Of a stretch of DNA of 64,000 bases, positions 39,643 to 47,200 are shown piece by piece; within the stretch, counting starts at the first letter, position 1, and each line of letters starts with the position of its first letter. A program made the position numbers and the translations under genes. Under the pieces are notes generated by a model. The model was not told the DNA's origin and ran no database searches. It saw only the letters and a program-made list of their open reading frames with translations. This DNA comes from Desulfuromonadaceae bacterium (GTDB lineage Bacteria; Desulfobacterota; Desulfuromonadia; Geobacterales; Pseudopelobacteraceae), in assembly GCA_028683855.1 (NCBI GenBank), contig JAQUHA010000005.1, positions 62,001-126,000 on the forward strand, in the 5' to 3' direction.

Positions 39643-41250
39643 TTACGGCAAAACGGGCAAACCGAGCTCCGTGAGAAAGGCATTATGTTTCTCCTTTGCC
39701 TTCTCGATGTTCTGCGTCAATGAAAGCAACTCCTCATTTACCGCCTGCAAATCGATTTCTTCATCCGCTACGGCAGTGCTGATGTAGCGCGAGATGTTCA
39801 GGTTGTAGCCTTCCTTCTCGATTCGCTCCATCGATACCCGCATGGAATATCGCTCCTCTTCGCGCCGGTACTGATAGGTGTCGAGAATCTTGTCGATATC
39901 CTCCGGGCGCAGGCGGTTTTGCCGCTTCCCTTTCTCGAAGTGCTCGGCGGCGTTGATGAACAGCACGTCATCGGGCTTTTTGCACTTCTTCAGCACCAGA
40001 ATGCAGACCGGGATGCCGGTGGAGAAGAACAGGTTGGCGGGTAGTCCGATCACGGTGTCGATGTTGCCATCTTTCAGCAGCTTGGTGCGGATGCGCTCTT
40101 CCGCACCGCCCCGGAAGAGCACGCCGTGGGGGAGGATGATCGCCATCACCCCTTCGGGCTTCAGGTAATGAAAGCCGTGCAGCAAAAAGGCGAAGTCAGC
40201 GGCGGACTTGGGGGCCAGGCCATAATTTTTGAAGCGCATGTCCTCGCCCAGGGCCTCGGACGGCTCCCAGCGATAGCTGAACGGTGGATTGGCGACCACC
40301 GCATCGAACTTCGGCATCCTGGCCGGGTTCATCTCGCGCAGCATGTCCCAGTCGTTGGTGAGGGTGTCGCCGTGATAAATCTCGAACTCGGAATCTTTCA
40401 CCCCGTGCAGCAGCATGTTCATGCGCGCCAGGTTGTAGGTGGTGATGTTCTTCTCCTGCCCGACGATCTTGCCGATGCCGTGCGCTCCCATGCGGTGGCG
40501 TACGTTGAGCAGCAGCGAGCCCGAACCGCAGGCAAAGTCAAAGACGCTCTCCAGCTGTTTCTTCTTGCCGGTGGCCGGTTCCTGGCTGTCGAGGGTGACG
40601 ATACCCGACAAGATGCTGGAAATCTGCTGCGGGGTGTAGAACTCGCCCGCCTTCTTGCCGGAGCCGGCGGCAAACTGGCCGATCAGGTATTCATAGGCGT
40701 CGCCCAGAGTGTCCTTGTCCGTGGAAAACTGGGATAAGCCCTCGGCAATCGCCTTGATGATGGTGCAGAGCTTGGCATTGCGTGCTTCGTACCCCTTGCC
40801 CAGTTTTTCCGAATTCAGATTGATCTCGGAGAAGAGCCCACCGAAGGTGCTGGCGAAGGACTCGTTCTCGATGTAGTCAAAGCCGCTTTGCAGGGTGTGC
40901 AGTAACTCCCCGTTCTGCGTGCGCGCCAACTCGGCGATGCTCCCCCAGAGGTGGCCGGGCTGGATCACGTAGTGCGTCTTGCGGCGCATCTGCTTTTCGA
41001 ACTCGGCAGTGTCGTCGGGGTTCTGCGCGTACCACACGGCCAGCGGCGTGCGGCGGTCGTTTGCTGCGAGCTTGGGATAATCCGGCCCCAGCTCCTTGTG
41101 CGCCGCTGTCTCGTAGTTGTCCGACAGATAGCGCAAGAAGAGAAAGGAGAGCATGTAATCGCGGAAATCGTCCGCGTTCATCGCGCCGCGCAGTTGGTCG
41201 GCAATGCCCCACAGGGTGTTGCCAAGTTGTTTTTGGTCGAGTTCGGTCAT
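39643..41250 (-). CDS. hsdM: Type I restriction-modification methyltransferase subunit HsdM
   Basis: FDFACGSGSLLL SAM motif; NPPFSYRW; N-terminal HsdM domain. Confidence 0.95.
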   Translation of the reverse strand: MTELDQKQLGNTLWGIADQLRGAMNADDFRDYMLSFLFLRYLSDNYETAAHKELGPDYPKLAANDRRTPLAVWYAQNPDDTAEFEKQMRRKTHYVIQPGHLWGSIAELARTQNGELLHTLQSGFDYIENESFASTFGGLFSEINLNSEKLGKGYEARNAKLCTIIKAIAEGLSQFSTDKDTLGDAYEYLIGQFAAGSGKKAGEFYTPQQISSILSGIVTLDSQEPATGKKKQLESVFDFACGSGSLLLNVRHRMGAHGIGKIVGQEKNITTYNLARMNMLLHGVKDSEFEIYHGDTLTNDWDMLREMNPARMPKFDAVVANPPFSYRWEPSEALGEDMRFKNYGLAPKSAADFAFLLHGFHYLKPEGVMAIILPHGVLFRGGAEERIRTKLLKDGNIDTVIGLPANLFFSTGIPVCILVLKKCKKPDDVLFINAAEHFEKGKRQNRLRPEDIDKILDTYQYRREEERYSMRVSMERIEKEGYNLNISRYISTAVADEEIDLQAVNEELLSLTQNIEKAKEKHNAFLTELGLPVLP

Positions 41251-41308
41251 TTTTTATCTCTTTTGTCTCAATGAACTGCCGAGTATTCCTCGGTAGTTTG
41301 ACGTTTGC

Positions 41309-41350
41309 TCCCCCGCCCCTGGCGGGCGGGGGTCGGGGGGTGGGGGAAGC
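41309..41350. repeat. Left GC-rich inverted repeat flanking the DUF559 gene
   Basis: ctcccccgcccctggcgggcgggggtcggggggtgggggaagc; near reverse complement of 41701-41743. Confidence 0.85.
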
Positions 41351-41353
41351 CAC

Positions 41354-41695
41354 TTACAGGCACCGCTGCCTGATAACCTCCAGAACTCCTTCAATATTCT
41401 CGATTACATCATTGTTCCAGAATCGTAATACGGTAAATCCGTTAGATGTAAGACAGGAGTCTCTCTGCATGTCGTAGTCTCTATTTTCAGAGTGCTGACC
41501 ACCATCAAGCTCAATGATAACCTTTTTGTCAAAGCATACGAAGTCTACGATGTATGATTCAATCGGTTGCTGCCTGCGAAACTTGACGCCTTCGACCTGT
41601 CGGTTTCTCAACTGCTGCCAAAGCAATCGTTCAGCATCAGTAGCGTTATTACGTAGTTCTCTGGCAAACCCTTGTAAGGTATGACGTGGTTTCAT
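41354..41695 (-). CDS. DUF559 (Vsr-like) endonuclease-domain protein; ATG at 41695 preferred over the GTG at 41710
   Basis: RELRNNATDAERLLWQQLRNRQVEGVKFRRQQPIESYIVDFVCFDKKVIIELDGGQH. Confidence 0.9.
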   Translation of the reverse strand: MKPRHTLQGFARELRNNATDAERLLWQQLRNRQVEGVKFRRQQPIESYIVDFVCFDKKVIIELDGGQHSENRDYDMQRDSCLTSNGFTVLRFWNNDVIENIEGVLEVIRQRCL

Positions 41696-41700
41696 GGCAA

Positions 41701-41743
41701 CTTCCCCCACCCCCTAACCCCCTCCCGCAAGGGGCGGGGGAAC
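41701..41743. repeat. Right GC-rich inverted repeat flanking the DUF559 gene
   Basis: cttcccccaccccctaaccccctcccgcaaggggcgggggaac. Confidence 0.85.
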
Positions 41744-41775
41744 TTTTTGAACCTTGAAAATGTCCAAACTCCAGG

Positions 41776-41853
41776 CAGTTGTCAACCATTGGTGACAACT
41801 GAATCCTCGCTCAATTTGCTACACACTGTGTAGCAAATTCTCTGTTCGAGGAT
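41776..41853. repeat. Two adjacent palindromes between hsdS and DUF559
   Basis: CAGTTGTCA-n8-TGACAACTG (41776-41801); AATTTGCTACACA-c-TGTGTAGCAAATT (41813-41839) inside outer ATCCTCG/CGAGGAT. Confidence 0.85.
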
Positions 41854-41888: not shown

Positions 41889-43139
41889 TCATTGGGCTGC
41901 CTCATCCAACACCGGGAAAAGCTGCTGCATCAGCCCTTTTTTATGGGTCTTGAGCGCGGCGAGTTTTTGGGTTTGGGTGGTGATGAGGTCGTCGAGGGTG
42001 GTGAGGCAGTCGGCGATTTTTTGTTGTTCGGAAATTCCTGGCAAACGAAGGATAACTTCTTTCAACTGTCCTCCTGTGATCAAGGGCTGCCCTGAGCCAA
42101 ACACAAGTTTTCTTGGATTGAAATACTCAAGAGCCAAGAAAATGAAACCCAGATTGACGGGATTGCTTAGGGAAATAACGAGCGTATTGTCAGTAACGCC
42201 AAATTTCCCTTCTGCTTTTGCCATCTGGCCTGCATTTGCACCAACTCTAGCGACGAGAATGAATTCCCCGTCATATGCAGCATTTGTTGATTTTCCAATA
42301 ATCCCTGTTGAACCGTATAGCTCATAGCAACCTTCTGAATCGTTACCGTCCTTCCCTGACGCAATATACGCGCAAATCTCTTTCAGCCGCTTCTCCTCCC
42401 ACTCCCCCGCCTCCCGAAACTCGGGGAAGCGCAGTTTGGGCACCAGAGTGGGGGGAGCATCCTGCTCCCTTGTTTCAGAAGCCCTGGAGCTGGAAGCTCC
42501 AGCTACCTTGGGGAAAAGCTGCTGCATCAGCCCTTTTTTATGGGTCTTGAGCGTGTCGAGCTGTTGCGCCTCCAGAGTGATCAGTTCGTCGAGGGAAGCG
42601 AGACAGTCGGCGATTTTTTGTTGTTCGGGGGAGCTTGGGATGGCAACAGATATGTCTGCCAAGTCTGACGAGTTGATTGCGGGATAGCTTGAGCCCGTGC
42701 ACTTTGCGATGACTCGTCCGACAAAATCGTCGGTGTGAATTGCTTGAAACAGAAAATCCGCTGATTCATTAGACCTAAGTTGTGCGTACCCGGTCGATGC
42801 GACATAATGAACGTCATCTTCGATTCTGAAGAGAAAGTTGTTGCGCTGGTACGGACGAACAATCTGAAAAATCACGTCGCCATAACGCAATAACCTTTGC
42901 GCTCTACTCGGCGCCTCGTCACGACCGATTATCTTGCGCGCTTTTAGCTCTCCAGCTTCCACGGACTCCAAATCGATGTATGCAAATTCCTCAGGTAGTT
43001 GTGGGTTCTCTGGATTCACGTCGCAAGCCTCGTTCAGCCTCATCGCAATCCACTCCCCCGCCTCCCGAAACTCAGGAAAGCGCAGCTTCGGCACCAATCC
43101 GCGTTTTTCCGATGAGGTCATGACACTTCTCCCGCTCAC
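41889..43139 (-). CDS. hsdS: Type I restriction-modification specificity subunit HsdS (two TRDs)
   Basis: Two repeats of VPKLRFPEFREAGEW and LPSxPEQQKIADCLxxLDELITxxxQxLxxLKTHKKGLMQQLFP. Confidence 0.94.
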   Translation of the reverse strand: MSGRSVMTSSEKRGLVPKLRFPEFREAGEWIAMRLNEACDVNPENPQLPEEFAYIDLESVEAGELKARKIIGRDEAPSRAQRLLRYGDVIFQIVRPYQRNNFLFRIEDDVHYVASTGYAQLRSNESADFLFQAIHTDDFVGRVIAKCTGSSYPAINSSDLADISVAIPSSPEQQKIADCLASLDELITLEAQQLDTLKTHKKGLMQQLFPKVAGASSSRASETREQDAPPTLVPKLRFPEFREAGEWEEKRLKEICAYIASGKDGNDSEGCYELYGSTGIIGKSTNAAYDGEFILVARVGANAGQMAKAEGKFGVTDNTLVISLSNPVNLGFIFLALEYFNPRKLVFGSGQPLITGGQLKEVILRLPGISEQQKIADCLTTLDDLITTQTQKLAALKTHKKGLMQQLFPVLDEAAQ

Positions 43140-44212
43140 GGCTCGCCGATCTGCTTCAGCATCTTGTCAAAATCGCTTTCAAACAGCCGATCCTGGACGA
43201 TGCGGTATTTTTCGAACTCGCATTCGGCGTGGGCCTTGGCGATTTCCGCCGTGACTTTGCCCGCGTCCTGCAAGATTTCCCGATCCCAGAGCCTCAAAAA
43301 GCCAGCCAGGCGGTCTTCCCAGTCGGCCATAGTCATGGGGATACGGCGCATCGCCTGTACTTCCGCCATATCCAGATAGGCTGACACGATGCGCTGCATC
43401 TGCGCCAGCTCAAACTCTGCAAGGTAGTTCTTGGCAACGGAGACATCGTATTTGTGGATTTTTCCCTTGGGAGCACCCTCCCAATGGGTTAATCCCATAT
43501 TTTCCTTTTGGTGATCAGCGCGATCCACGATAACCTCCGCCGCCGTCTGACCGTGGATGGCGTAGTGCAGTTTGTTCTGCACGGCAGCAAAAAAACGCTT
43601 GGTGGCCGTAGCGGTCGAGTCATAGTCCAGCGCAGTGGCGTAGATGTCGGTGATCTTCTGGTAAAACTTACGCTCCGAAAGCCGGATTTCCCGGATTTTT
43701 TCCAGTTGCCGCTCGAAAAACTCTTTTGTCAGGACGCTGCCGCCCGCCTTGAGACGATCCACGTCCATGACCCAGCCCTGGATCGTGTAATCCTTGACAA
43801 TCTGGTTGGCCCATTTGCGGAATTGCACCGCGCGCTCGTTTTCGATCTTGAAGCCCACGGCAATGATGGCTTGCAGACTGTAATGTTTGACCCGATATGA
43901 CTTACCATCGGCGGCAGTTGTTAAGTACGACTTAACAACTGCCGCCTCTTCAAGCTCGTTGTCGGCAAAGATGCGTTTCAGATGCTGATTGATAGCGGGC
44001 ACAGAGACATCGTAGATTGTTGCCATCATCTTTTGCGTCAGCCAGATGTTTTCTTCTTCATAGCGCATTTCCACGCTGGTCTCTTGATTGCCACTGGCGG
44101 CGACAAAAGTCAGATATTCGGCTGCCGACGAACGCGCTACGGATGTATTCCCCTCCCGTGGAGGGGTGCCCCGAAGGGGCGGGGTGGTGCCTTTGCTGAT
44201 CTTATTGCTCAT
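43136..44212 (-). CDS. RhuM-family protein (virulence RhuM/Fic-like island protein); start MSNK at 44212 preferred
   Basis: MRYEEENIWLTQKMMATIYDVSVPAINQHLKRIFADNEL; TTAADGKSYRVKHYSLQAIIAVGFKI. Confidence 0.9.
   Translation of the reverse strand: MSNKISKGTTPPLRGTPPREGNTSVARSSAAEYLTFVAASGNQETSVEMRYEEENIWLTQKMMATIYDVSVPAINQHLKRIFADNELEEAAVVKSYLTTAADGKSYRVKHYSLQAIIAVGFKIENERAVQFRKWANQIVKDYTIQGWVMDVDRLKAGGSVLTKEFFERQLEKIREIRLSERKFYQKITDIYATALDYDSTATATKRFFAAVQNKLHYAIHGQTAAEVIVDRADHQKENMGLTHWEGAPKGKIHKYDVSVAKNYLAEFELAQMQRIVSAYLDMAEVQAMRRIPMTMADWEDRLAGFLRLWDREILQDAGKVTAEIAKAHAECEFEKYRIVQDRLFESDFDKMLKQIGEP
43910..43946. repeat. 37-bp perfect palindrome (17-bp arms, 3-nt centre) inside rhuM
   Basis: ggcggcagttgttaagt-acg-acttaacaactgccgcc. 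Confidence 0.92.
44148..44191. repeat. GC-rich palindromic element in the 5' end of rhuM
   Basis: ttcccctcccgtggaggggtgccccgaaggggcggggtggtgcc; near-identical core at 45795-45829. Confidence 0.85.
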
Positions 44213-47200
44213 ACGCCCCCAGCCCCGAAATCTCCCGCCCCTGGGCAAGCTTGTGCAGCAGCGGGATCAAGTCTTCCATCAGCGCCAGTTCCGCCTTGGT
44301 GCGGGCTTTCCAGCCCAGTTCCAGCGGGGCCATGAGGTCGCTCAACTGTTCGCCGTCGAAGATCATGCGGCGCAGAATGGCGTCCACAAAGCCTTGCAGA
44401 GCGGCGGCATCGAGCCCGTGCTTTTCGGCAATAGTGGCCAGTTGGCGGGCGTGCTTCTCTGCCTTGAAGCTCTCGAAGCCGGTGCGGATGGCGTTTTCGT
44501 CCAGAGCCTTGCCAGCTTCCAGGGTGCCGATGTACTCGGCAATGTCGTCACGCTCATCCATGAACTTGGCATCGGCTTGAATCAGACCAATCAGCTGCTG
44601 ACGGCTCATCTTCTGCTTGCCAGGTGTCTGCTGCGAGTAGCGGGCTATCAGCGCCATGATGTAGTCGTAATCGATTACGGCGCTGGCAAAGAGCACGAAC
44701 TCGAAATCGAGCTGCTCGATGGCGTCTTGCACGTCGCCGCCGTCCTTACCGGTTTTGCCCTGCTGGGCTTTGAGGCGCTGGGCGGTCTCCAGGTAGGAAC
44801 CTCGCAGGGAACGCAGCTCATCCTCGGGCAAAATGGCATTGATGGTGTGCTGTTGCGCTTCATCAATGTCAGTGTATTGGTCGAGCTGGGTCTTGAGGCG
44901 CTGCACTTCCTTGAAACGGGTAATGAATTCGATACGCGCGGTATCACCCTTCAGATTGTAGACGGCTTGTGGCTCGCACACCAGGCCACTTTGCGTCATG
45001 TACTGCTCCATCGCCGCTACTGCTTTTCGATATTTTTCAATCACCACGGGGGCTGGGTCCACCAGCCAGATCTCCTTGGCGGGTTTGCTGACCTCGCCGG
45101 AAAAGAGGCTGATGGCGGTATCGACCGCGTCCTGCTGCTGACGAAAGTCGAGGATGTTGCCATAGGGTTTGGTATCGTTGAGCACGCGGTTGGTGCGCGA
45201 AAACGCCTGAATCAGGCCGTGGAACTTGAGGTTCTTGTCCACGTAGAGGGTATTCAGGAACTTGGAATCGAAGCCGGTGAGGAGCATGTCCACCACGATG
45301 GTGATGTCGATCTTCTGCGCGTGGGGCAGATCGCTATTCGGGTATTGCTGATCCTTGATGCGCTTTTGCACGTCCTGATAGTAGAGGTCGAATTCACCGA
45401 TGCCGTGGTTGCTGCCGTAGTGGGCATTGTAGTCGGCGATGATCGCCTTGAGAGCTTCCTTCTTCTGGTCAGGGTTCTGCTCGTTATCGACCTTTTCCTG
45501 CGGCAGGTCTTCCTGAATCTGCTGCACGTCCTTGTTCCCTTCGGCGGGCGGGGAGAAGACACAGGCGATAGTGAGCGGCTGAAAGTCGGGGTCAGCGGCC
45601 TGCCGTTCCGCCTGCACGGTTTTGAACAGGGCGTGATATTCGATGGCGTCGTTGATGGAGGCGGTGGCCAGCACGGCGTTGAACTTGCGCCGGTTGGTGG
45701 CGGCGTCATGCTTGGCCAGGATGGCTTCGACGATGGCGCGCTTAGTCAGCGCCTCGCCCGGCTTCGCCGTCCACCCCTCCATAGGAGGCAACCACCCCGC
45801 CCCTTCGGGGCACCCCTCCACTGGAGGGGAATAACACCGCCCTAATTCCCCTCCTTTGGAGGGGTACGCCGTAGGCGGGGGGTGGTTGCCTTCCAGCTTG
45901 TAGTAATCGACATGGAAGCGCAGAACGTTGCGATCTTCGATGGCGTGGGTGATGGTATAGGCGTGAAGTTGCTGCTGGAATATGTCGGCTGTGGTCTTGT
46001 AGGACGCCTGCTCCCCTTCGATCTGCTGGTAACTGGCGTTCTGCTCGAAGATCGGCGTGCCGGTAAAGCCGAACAACTGGGCGTTGGGGAAGAACTCCTT
46101 GATCGCCTTGTGGTTCTCGCCGAATTGCGAGCGGTGGCATTCGTCGAAGATAAAGACCATGCGGCTTTGGCGTAGCGGCTCCAGCCGCTCCTTGTAGGTG
46201 CGTTTGTACGAGCCGTTCTTGTTACTGTCATCCAGCGCCAAACCGAGTTTCTGTATGGTAGTGACGATCACCTTGTCAGCGTAGTCGTCGGAGAGCAGGC
46301 GCCGCACCAGGGTTTCGGTGTTGGTGTTCTCCTCGACGCACCCATCCTGGAATTTGTTGAATTCCTCCCGCGTCTGCCGGTCGAGATCTTTACGATCGAC
46401 CACGAACAGGCATTTGTCGATGTCCGGGTTATCCTTGAGCAGGGTGGAGGCCTTGAACGAGGTGAGCGTCTTGCCACTACCGGTGGTGTGCCAGATGTAG
46501 CCGTTGCCGCTATGCTGGTGGATGCAATCGACGATCGCCCTGACGGCATAGATCTGATAGGGCCGCATGATCATGAGCTTCTGCTCGCTGGCGACCAGTA
46601 CCATGTAGCGGCTGATCATCTCGCCCAGAACGCACTTGGAGAGGAAGCGCAAGGAGAAGTCGTCGAGATGGGTGACTTTGCTGTTATCCACGTCCGCGAA
46701 CTGATAGAGCGGCAAGAAACGTTCGTCGGCATTGAAGCTGAAGTGGCGGGCGTTGTTGTTGGCGAAGTACCAGGTATCGCTGCGGTTGCTGACGATAAAA
46801 AGTTGCAGGAAACAGAGCAGGGTTTTGTTGTAGCCGTTGCCGAGATCGTTCTTGTAATCGACGATCTGCTGCATGGCCCGGCGTGGGCTGATTTGCAGGG
46901 TCTTCAGCTCGATCTGCACCGCTGGCACACCGTTGATGAGCAGGATCACGTCATAACGGTGGTGGCTGTAATCAGTGTTGATGCGGAGTTGATTGATCAC
47001 CTCAAAGCTGTTCTTGCACCAGTCCTTGATGTTGACCAGAGTGTAGTAGAGCGGCGTGCCATCGTCGCGCTCGAAGCTGTTCTTCTCGCGCAGGTGCTTA
47101 GCGGCGGCGAAGACGTCGGGGGTGACGATGGAATCGAGAAGGCGAGCGAATTCACTGTCGGTGAGATGGACGCGATTCAGTGCCTCGAACTGCTGGCGGA

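Follow-up and report, generated by a model that had tools for sequence, protein, structure and literature searches.

In a 64,000-nucleotide stretch of DNA from a Desulfuromonadaceae bacterium (the window), the segment at about positions 41291-41774 (0.45-0.5 kb) is probably a copy of a miniature mobile unit with a wide distribution, composed of a gene of the DUF559 nuclease family and the inverted GC-rich repeats that bracket it. The best reading of our results is a REPtron-like unit in which palindromes are paired with a PD-(D/E)XK-type nuclease instead of an HUH transposase. We are highly confident that gene and repeats form a mobile unit. That DUF559 drives its movement is the simplest account, and one we favor with reasonable confidence, because the repeats match their cognate nuclease, the protein has a nuclease fold, and the unit encodes no other enzyme.

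Layout of the unit in the window

The unit lies in a type I restriction operon, between hsdM and hsdS, a position confirmed by the profile matches of the neighboring genes. The minus-strand gene order, from right to left, is hsdR, a RhuM-family gene, hsdS, the DUF559 gene, and hsdM. The features are as follows.

39643..41250, minus strand: hsdM, gene of the host operon on the downstream side of the unit
41291..41308, plus strand: possible left-hand equivalent of the outer end, decayed (CGGTAGTTTGACGTTTGC versus CTGGAGTTTGGACTTTTGC; a weak alignment made by eye)
41309..41349, plus strand: 3' repeat arm, inverted, hairpin (41310-41332) outside and tail (41335-41349) toward the stop codon
41324-41346, plus strand: G-quadruplex motif of the 3' arm
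41354..41695, minus strand: DUF559 (PF04480) gene, 113 amino acids, predicted EDxHD/PD-(D/E)XK-type nuclease
41701..41741, minus strand: 5' repeat arm, hairpin (41718-41740) outside and G-run tail (41702-41716) toward the ATG
41704-41726, minus strand: G-quadruplex motif of the 5' arm
41742..41774, minus strand: outer end CTGGAGTTTGGACATTTTCAAGGTTCAAAAAGTT, common to Geobacteraceae copies of the unit (L042, L043, L046, L048, L049)
41889..43139, minus strand: hsdS, gene of the host operon on the upstream side of the unit

The first-pass annotation had described two arms that are nearly reverse complements, each palindromic in itself, with the gene fitted tightly between them. This is what we find, with arm coordinates that differ by 0-2 positions from those given there. 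An inverted-repeat search returns two arms of 41 nt, 90% complementary and separated by 351 nt. The minus-strand stop codon TAA (41356-41354) is 3 nt off the left repeat and the ATG (41695-41693) 5 nt off the right one, exactly as annotated. Each arm contains the hairpin CCCCCGCCCCTTGCGGGAGGGGG or a variant of it. The plan of an arm is a hairpin made of a C-run, a loop, and a G-run, then a linker of 2-3 bases, then a second G-run, the "tail," which faces the gene. The two arms hold 2/3 of the window's canonical G-quadruplex motifs. Beyond the right repeat, the sequence CTGGAGTTTGGACATTTTCAAGGTTCAAAAAGTT on the minus strand is near-identical to the boundary of unit copies in several Geobacteraceae genomes. 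Chance or low complexity can be ruled out as the origin of these repeats: the 23-nt core has 0 matches in dinucleotide shuffles of the window, the arm-to-arm score is 62 when a score of 30 is attained by just 14 of 3196 control positions, and the repeats recur in relatives.

The surroundings contain other repetitive sequences. Two more palindromes lie between hsdS and the unit (41775-41845), namely the near-palindrome GTTGTCAACCATTGGTGACAAC and the perfect AATTTGCTACACA/TGTGTAGCAAATT, whose 13-nt arms are 1 nt apart. At 44088-46140, hsdR and the 5' end of rhuM include in-frame stretches that resemble another GC-rich palindromic repeat and encode peptides such as PPVEGCPEGAGW and PPLRGTPPREGN. 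Within hsdS (41917-42570), gaaaagctgctgcatcagcccttttttatgggtcttgagcg is present twice in near-identical form about 600 bases apart, which fits the two-domain repeat of this gene.

The window's genome itself has no resident population of these repeats. The first-pass annotation suggested looking for solitary repeats elsewhere in it and for the same flanks on its other DUF559 genes, and neither was found. Allowing up to 3 mismatches, the core is confined to the two flanking copies, and the two further DUF559 genes each have their own, different GC-rich inverted palindromes. Hence, the unit either stands alone in this genome or arrived there recently. A search of plasmids with the window's DNA gave a single short repeat match.

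Recurrence of flanking repeats among DUF559 genes

A first scan, using one genome per species, covered 45 homologous loci in relatives of Geobacter, beta-, gamma-, and alphaproteobacteria, Mariprofundaceae, Gastranaerophilales, Doudnabacteria, and others. Most of them have GC-rich palindromes on both sides. So that loci would not be picked by their flanks, we then assembled a set by a Pfam family search in 141 genomes of the window's order, 106 of which were positive. The loci returned and 60 more were all put through a single procedure, with the threshold placed at the 99th percentile of the scores from 3196 control positions on these contigs. Repeat pairs exceed this threshold at 77 of the 91 order-wide loci, versus 1% of control positions, and at 104 of 128 distinct loci over both sets once identical proteins are removed; neighboring ORFs do so in 4/117 cases. 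It is therefore not the case that homologues generally lack the flanks, an outcome that would have spoken against the mobile unit. About 15-19% of DUF559 loci have no detectable repeat pair. The family also takes in stand-alone, possibly domesticated nucleases.

The sequences of the repeats vary by lineage and their plan is constant, with the hairpin outside and the second G-run facing the gene. The tail is gene-facing in 38 cases, faces away in 4, and has no determined polarity in 30. G-quadruplex motifs are found upstream on the sense strand at 72/127 loci, and equally downstream on the antisense strand at 72/127, versus 2.1% of control windows in both comparisons. Similarity between repeats rises with that between the proteins (rho 0.29, permutation p = 0.002, for related genomes and uncorrected for phylogeny), also among pairs below 60% identity (0.14, p = 0.006, likewise uncorrected). 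Most genomes have 1-3 DUF559 genes, and their repeats differ in the cases looked at. In three genomes (L229, L256, L257), a cas4-like gene is preceded by a DUF559 unit in the same reading frame, the two being fused through a linker of repeat-encoded peptides.

Empty and occupied sites

The position of the gene in a restriction operon, with palindromes adjoining its start and stop codons, could indicate an ordinary accessory nuclease, acting in Vsr-like repair or restriction, whose palindromes are transcription terminators or insulators. The Caulobacter DUF559 protein VsrA does act as a Vsr-like nuclease in vivo, causing damage when a methylase is lost (PMC12907096). We consider this explanation very improbable. 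There is no unit upstream of hsdM in four relatives (L291-L294) whose HsdM N termini (174 residues) are 94, 90, 72, and 69% identical to that of the window. The gene is thus not a conserved member of orthologous type I operons, and an operon gene needed by restriction is ruled out, in agreement with the first-pass remark that a typical type I operon requires no gene there. Similar units are also present beside dnaG, hpaE, and the cas4-like gene and inside methyltransferase genes, and the repeats occur solitary and paired across genomes.

Several of these locations can be compared with uninterrupted counterparts. Deinococcus sp. NW-56 has a unit between hpaE and an oxidoreductase gene, two genes whose reading frames share four bases in D. 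deserti, D. ficus, and D. radiophilus. D. proteolyticus has a unit on the opposite side of the oxidoreductase gene. Among sphingomonads, some genomes have a yqeY-dnaG spacer of about 10-100 bases, and others have a DUF559 unit in it. In two genomes (L188, L219), the unit interrupts a DNA-methyltransferase gene in frame; for L188, uninterrupted homologues are numerous, with 260 plasmid records that cover 80% or more of the joined flanks. The same two reading frames contain additional repeat-encoded peptides elsewhere. Empty sites therefore exist in hsdM operons, Deinococcus hpaE operons, yqeY-dnaG spacers, and methyltransferase genes. We saw no clear target-site duplication at the junctions of L188, L219, and NW-56, and no exact excision of a unit. 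For Azospirillum strains, the seven records that cover the site all show the unit there, which is uninformative on presence and absence.

Repeats without the gene

The repeats also occur without the gene in relatives. Together with the empty sites, this runs against the possibility, foreseen in the first pass, that every related operon would share the gene and no other copy of the repeat would exist. The Geobacter-type core has 9-76 copies in seven genomes and the gamma-type core 2-56 copies in nine genomes, versus 0-3 for the reversed pattern; with the order-wide counts included, reversed-pattern controls mostly give 0-3 and at most 8. Gene-less repeats occur solitary and in inverted, tail-facing pairs, with up to 121 per genome. 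A sample of 90 repeat loci comprised 16 tail-facing pairs, 5 hairpin-facing pairs, and 69 solitary repeats; the gap of inverted pairs was 18-40 bases in the examples printed. Several tail-facing pairs carry AAGYTGCC, the sequence ahead of the unit's ATG, and since this motif is common to both, such pairs look like units that lost their gene. Copies with internal deletions are found as well. Identity between L045 (Oryzomonas) and L046 (Geobacter) is 94% over 181 bases, with one internal deletion in common, and L048 and L049 have other deletions between the same ends. These four copies hence combine terminal inverted repeats with internal deletions, the combination by which insertion sequences and their MITEs are recognized.

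Repeat abundance is linked to the presence of the nuclease. Across the 141 genomes, type-a repeats average 11.5 copies with DUF559 versus 0.7 without (p = 1.6e-6) and type-b repeats 7.9 versus 2.5 (p = 0.002), p-values that are optimistic since the genomes are related and phylogeny is uncorrected. Where a sampled DUF559 gene is flanked by type a or type b repeats, the genome is richer in that type at other places (p = 0.004 and 0.002, respectively, again uncorrected for phylogeny). At most two copies of the two counted repeat types are present in 37/106 DUF559 genomes.

In one complete genome (G107), the orientation of type-a repeats switches between the halves of the chromosome, 31:11 versus 4:19 (Fisher 1.8e-5, with the division point set by eye after seeing the data). 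The sampled GC skew of this genome is weak and noisy, its replichore boundaries are not proven by skew, and skew as the cause of the orientation bias is no more than suggestive. The switch hints at a strand-specific, replication-linked insertion step or at selection on orientation.

The DUF559 protein and its possible role

The window's gene matches Pfam DUF559 with E = 4e-45 and 152.6 bits, far above the curated cutoff of 20.6, and a profile search gives no Y1_Tnp match in it. Its assignment to the Vsr-like nuclease group in the first pass agrees with this match and with structure comparisons. The AlphaFold model (pLDDT 87) matches 3HRL. In Foldseek, it matches 3R3P, the catalytic domain of the homing endonuclease I-Bth0305I, with E of about 1e-4, and Vsr (1cw0) more weakly, with a probability of 0.98. 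The profile search agrees with the I-Bth0305I-type assignment, so the predicted fold of DUF559 is that of this EDxHD homing endonuclease. In 29 diverse members, E22, D51, D64, H68, and D75 never vary, and E62 hardly does; the window's protein keeps E22, D51, E62-x-D64, H68, and D75. E22, D51, D64, H68, and D75 are the putative catalytic site residues, and DUF559 is presumably an active nuclease. A PDB sequence search also gave weak matches to enterotoxin B subunits (E of about 0.3), which we attribute to chance.

The relationship to I-Bth0305I raises the main rival to our reading, homing of the nuclease gene into existing repeat pairs. The DUF559 gene could have invaded the middle of inverted repeat pairs that something else spreads, by cutting gene-less pairs and being copied in by homologous repair along the arms, which seems unlikely to us. 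The gene does occupy what is the spacer of a tail-facing pair, a DUF559 gene has been assigned to the EDxHD homing family (PMC9403480), and the domain can reside in inteins too. One such domain (L238) is the apparent homing nuclease of an intein in a DNA-methyltransferase-like gene; no flanking repeats were detected there, as expected of a homing nuclease. In contrast, no intron or intein surrounds the window's DUF559 gene, which has inverted repeats of its own on both sides. Homing would also have to accommodate that genomes mostly have 1-3 DUF559 genes with differing repeats and not many copies in one repeat family, that units are also found at sites with no repeat in relatives, and that repeat abundance is linked to DUF559 presence.

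The alternative that we prefer, movement driven by DUF559, could proceed as follows. The nuclease would recognize its cognate repeat, either in duplex form or as a single strand folded into a hairpin or G-quadruplex, and would cut or nick it at its ends or close to them. Host repair or replication might then copy the released or broken unit elsewhere. Besides the unit that encodes it, the nuclease would have as targets, in trans, gene-less inverted pairs, which would be REPIN-like, and solitary repeats. The first-pass annotation had proposed a minimal mobile unit analogous to a RAYT/REP pair. Recurrent flanks, empty sites, and gene-less repeats sustain the core of that proposal; that DUF559 recognizes, cuts, or moves the repeats is what we infer from association, cognate matching, and fold.

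Comparison with known systems

The closest parallel is the REPtron (REP-RAYT, or REPIN and TnpA-REP). Both consist of a small enzyme gene between inverted hairpin repeats, with gene-less inverted pairs and solitary repeats, matched enzyme and repeat types, and a low gene copy number. Flanking inverted palindromes together with dispersed singlets and doublets, by which REPtrons are recognized, are present in relatives; the window's genome has the flanking pair only. However, DUF559 is a predicted EDxHD/PD-(D/E)XK-type nuclease and not an HUH tyrosine transposase. Its repeats lack a GTAG or CGTC tag and have TTA/TC-type linkers and G-runs instead; they are rich in C and G and contain a second G-run and, in many cases, a G-quadruplex motif. 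The DUF559 unit works like a REPtron, yet it is not one, because both defining features, the HUH transposase and the GTAG tag, are absent. TIRtrons resemble the unit in being a single gene with long terminal inverted repeats, some of them self-complementary and some repeated in the genome, but their enzymes, the TIRYTs, are HUH transposases (PMC3733652), and the Y1 genes of the genomes studied have distinct GGGGACAG-like ends.

These similar layouts (PMC3733652; PMC3116915) allow for DUF559 being a passenger, with the repeats serving as ends for a transposase acting in trans, for example, of the HUH/Y1 type. Y1 genes are indeed present in 7/8 genomes examined. Still, we regard a passenger role as quite unlikely: the Y1 genes of those genomes lack the DUF559-type flanks and, where they have inverted repeats, have other ones, such as the GGGGACAGG type; one genome (G015) has 17 gamma-type repeats and no Y1 match; and no other gene was seen with the C-rich flanks of DUF559. 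A RAYT or TIRYT as the driver of the DUF559 repeats is thus unsupported. The readings that invoke another transposase or an accessory nuclease fit the data less well than the nuclease-driven unit.

The DUF559, YcjD, and Vsr-like nucleases (PDB 3HRL, Vsr, Caulobacter VsrA) share sequence family and fold with the window's protein, but in the accessible parts of the open-licence literature we found no published link between them and flanking palindromes. Within that scope, the first-pass impression of a little-described system holds. The packaging of the gene in most tested relatives and the gene-less copies suggest an overlooked kind of miniature mobile element.

A second nuclease family and broader implications

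In three yqeY-dnaG spacers of sphingomonads, we find a gene for a small GIY-YIG nuclease, accompanied by another palindrome in inverted copies. Among GIY-YIG loci in sphingomonads (L158, L168, L170, L356-L385), 23/29 are flanked by inverted palindromes of several kinds, for example, GTCATTCCCGCGAAGGCGGGAATCC and CCGTTCGTCCTGAGCCTGTCGAAGGACG. This is possibly a second nuclease-palindrome system, and these flanks support a broader class of such units. It is a tentative proposal, with somewhat less than even weight, that DUF559/EDxHD and GIY-YIG nucleases, which have unrelated folds, independently play the role of RAYTs, each being bracketed by, and spreading, its own palindromes.

Short palindromic repeats are abundant in bacterial genomes, and for some families only is an enzyme, a RAYT, known. 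A 2013 survey reported CGTC-tagged repeats without association to a transposase gene and left open the status of untagged repeats (PMC3733652). Our model predicts that DUF559 cleaves its cognate repeat. If a nuclease of 110 residues suffices to spread palindromes, these would be among the smallest mobile units known, achieving mobility without a transposase. If the proposal is true, many of the abundant "orphan" palindromes interspersed in bacterial genomes would have a nuclease-driven, transposase-free origin.
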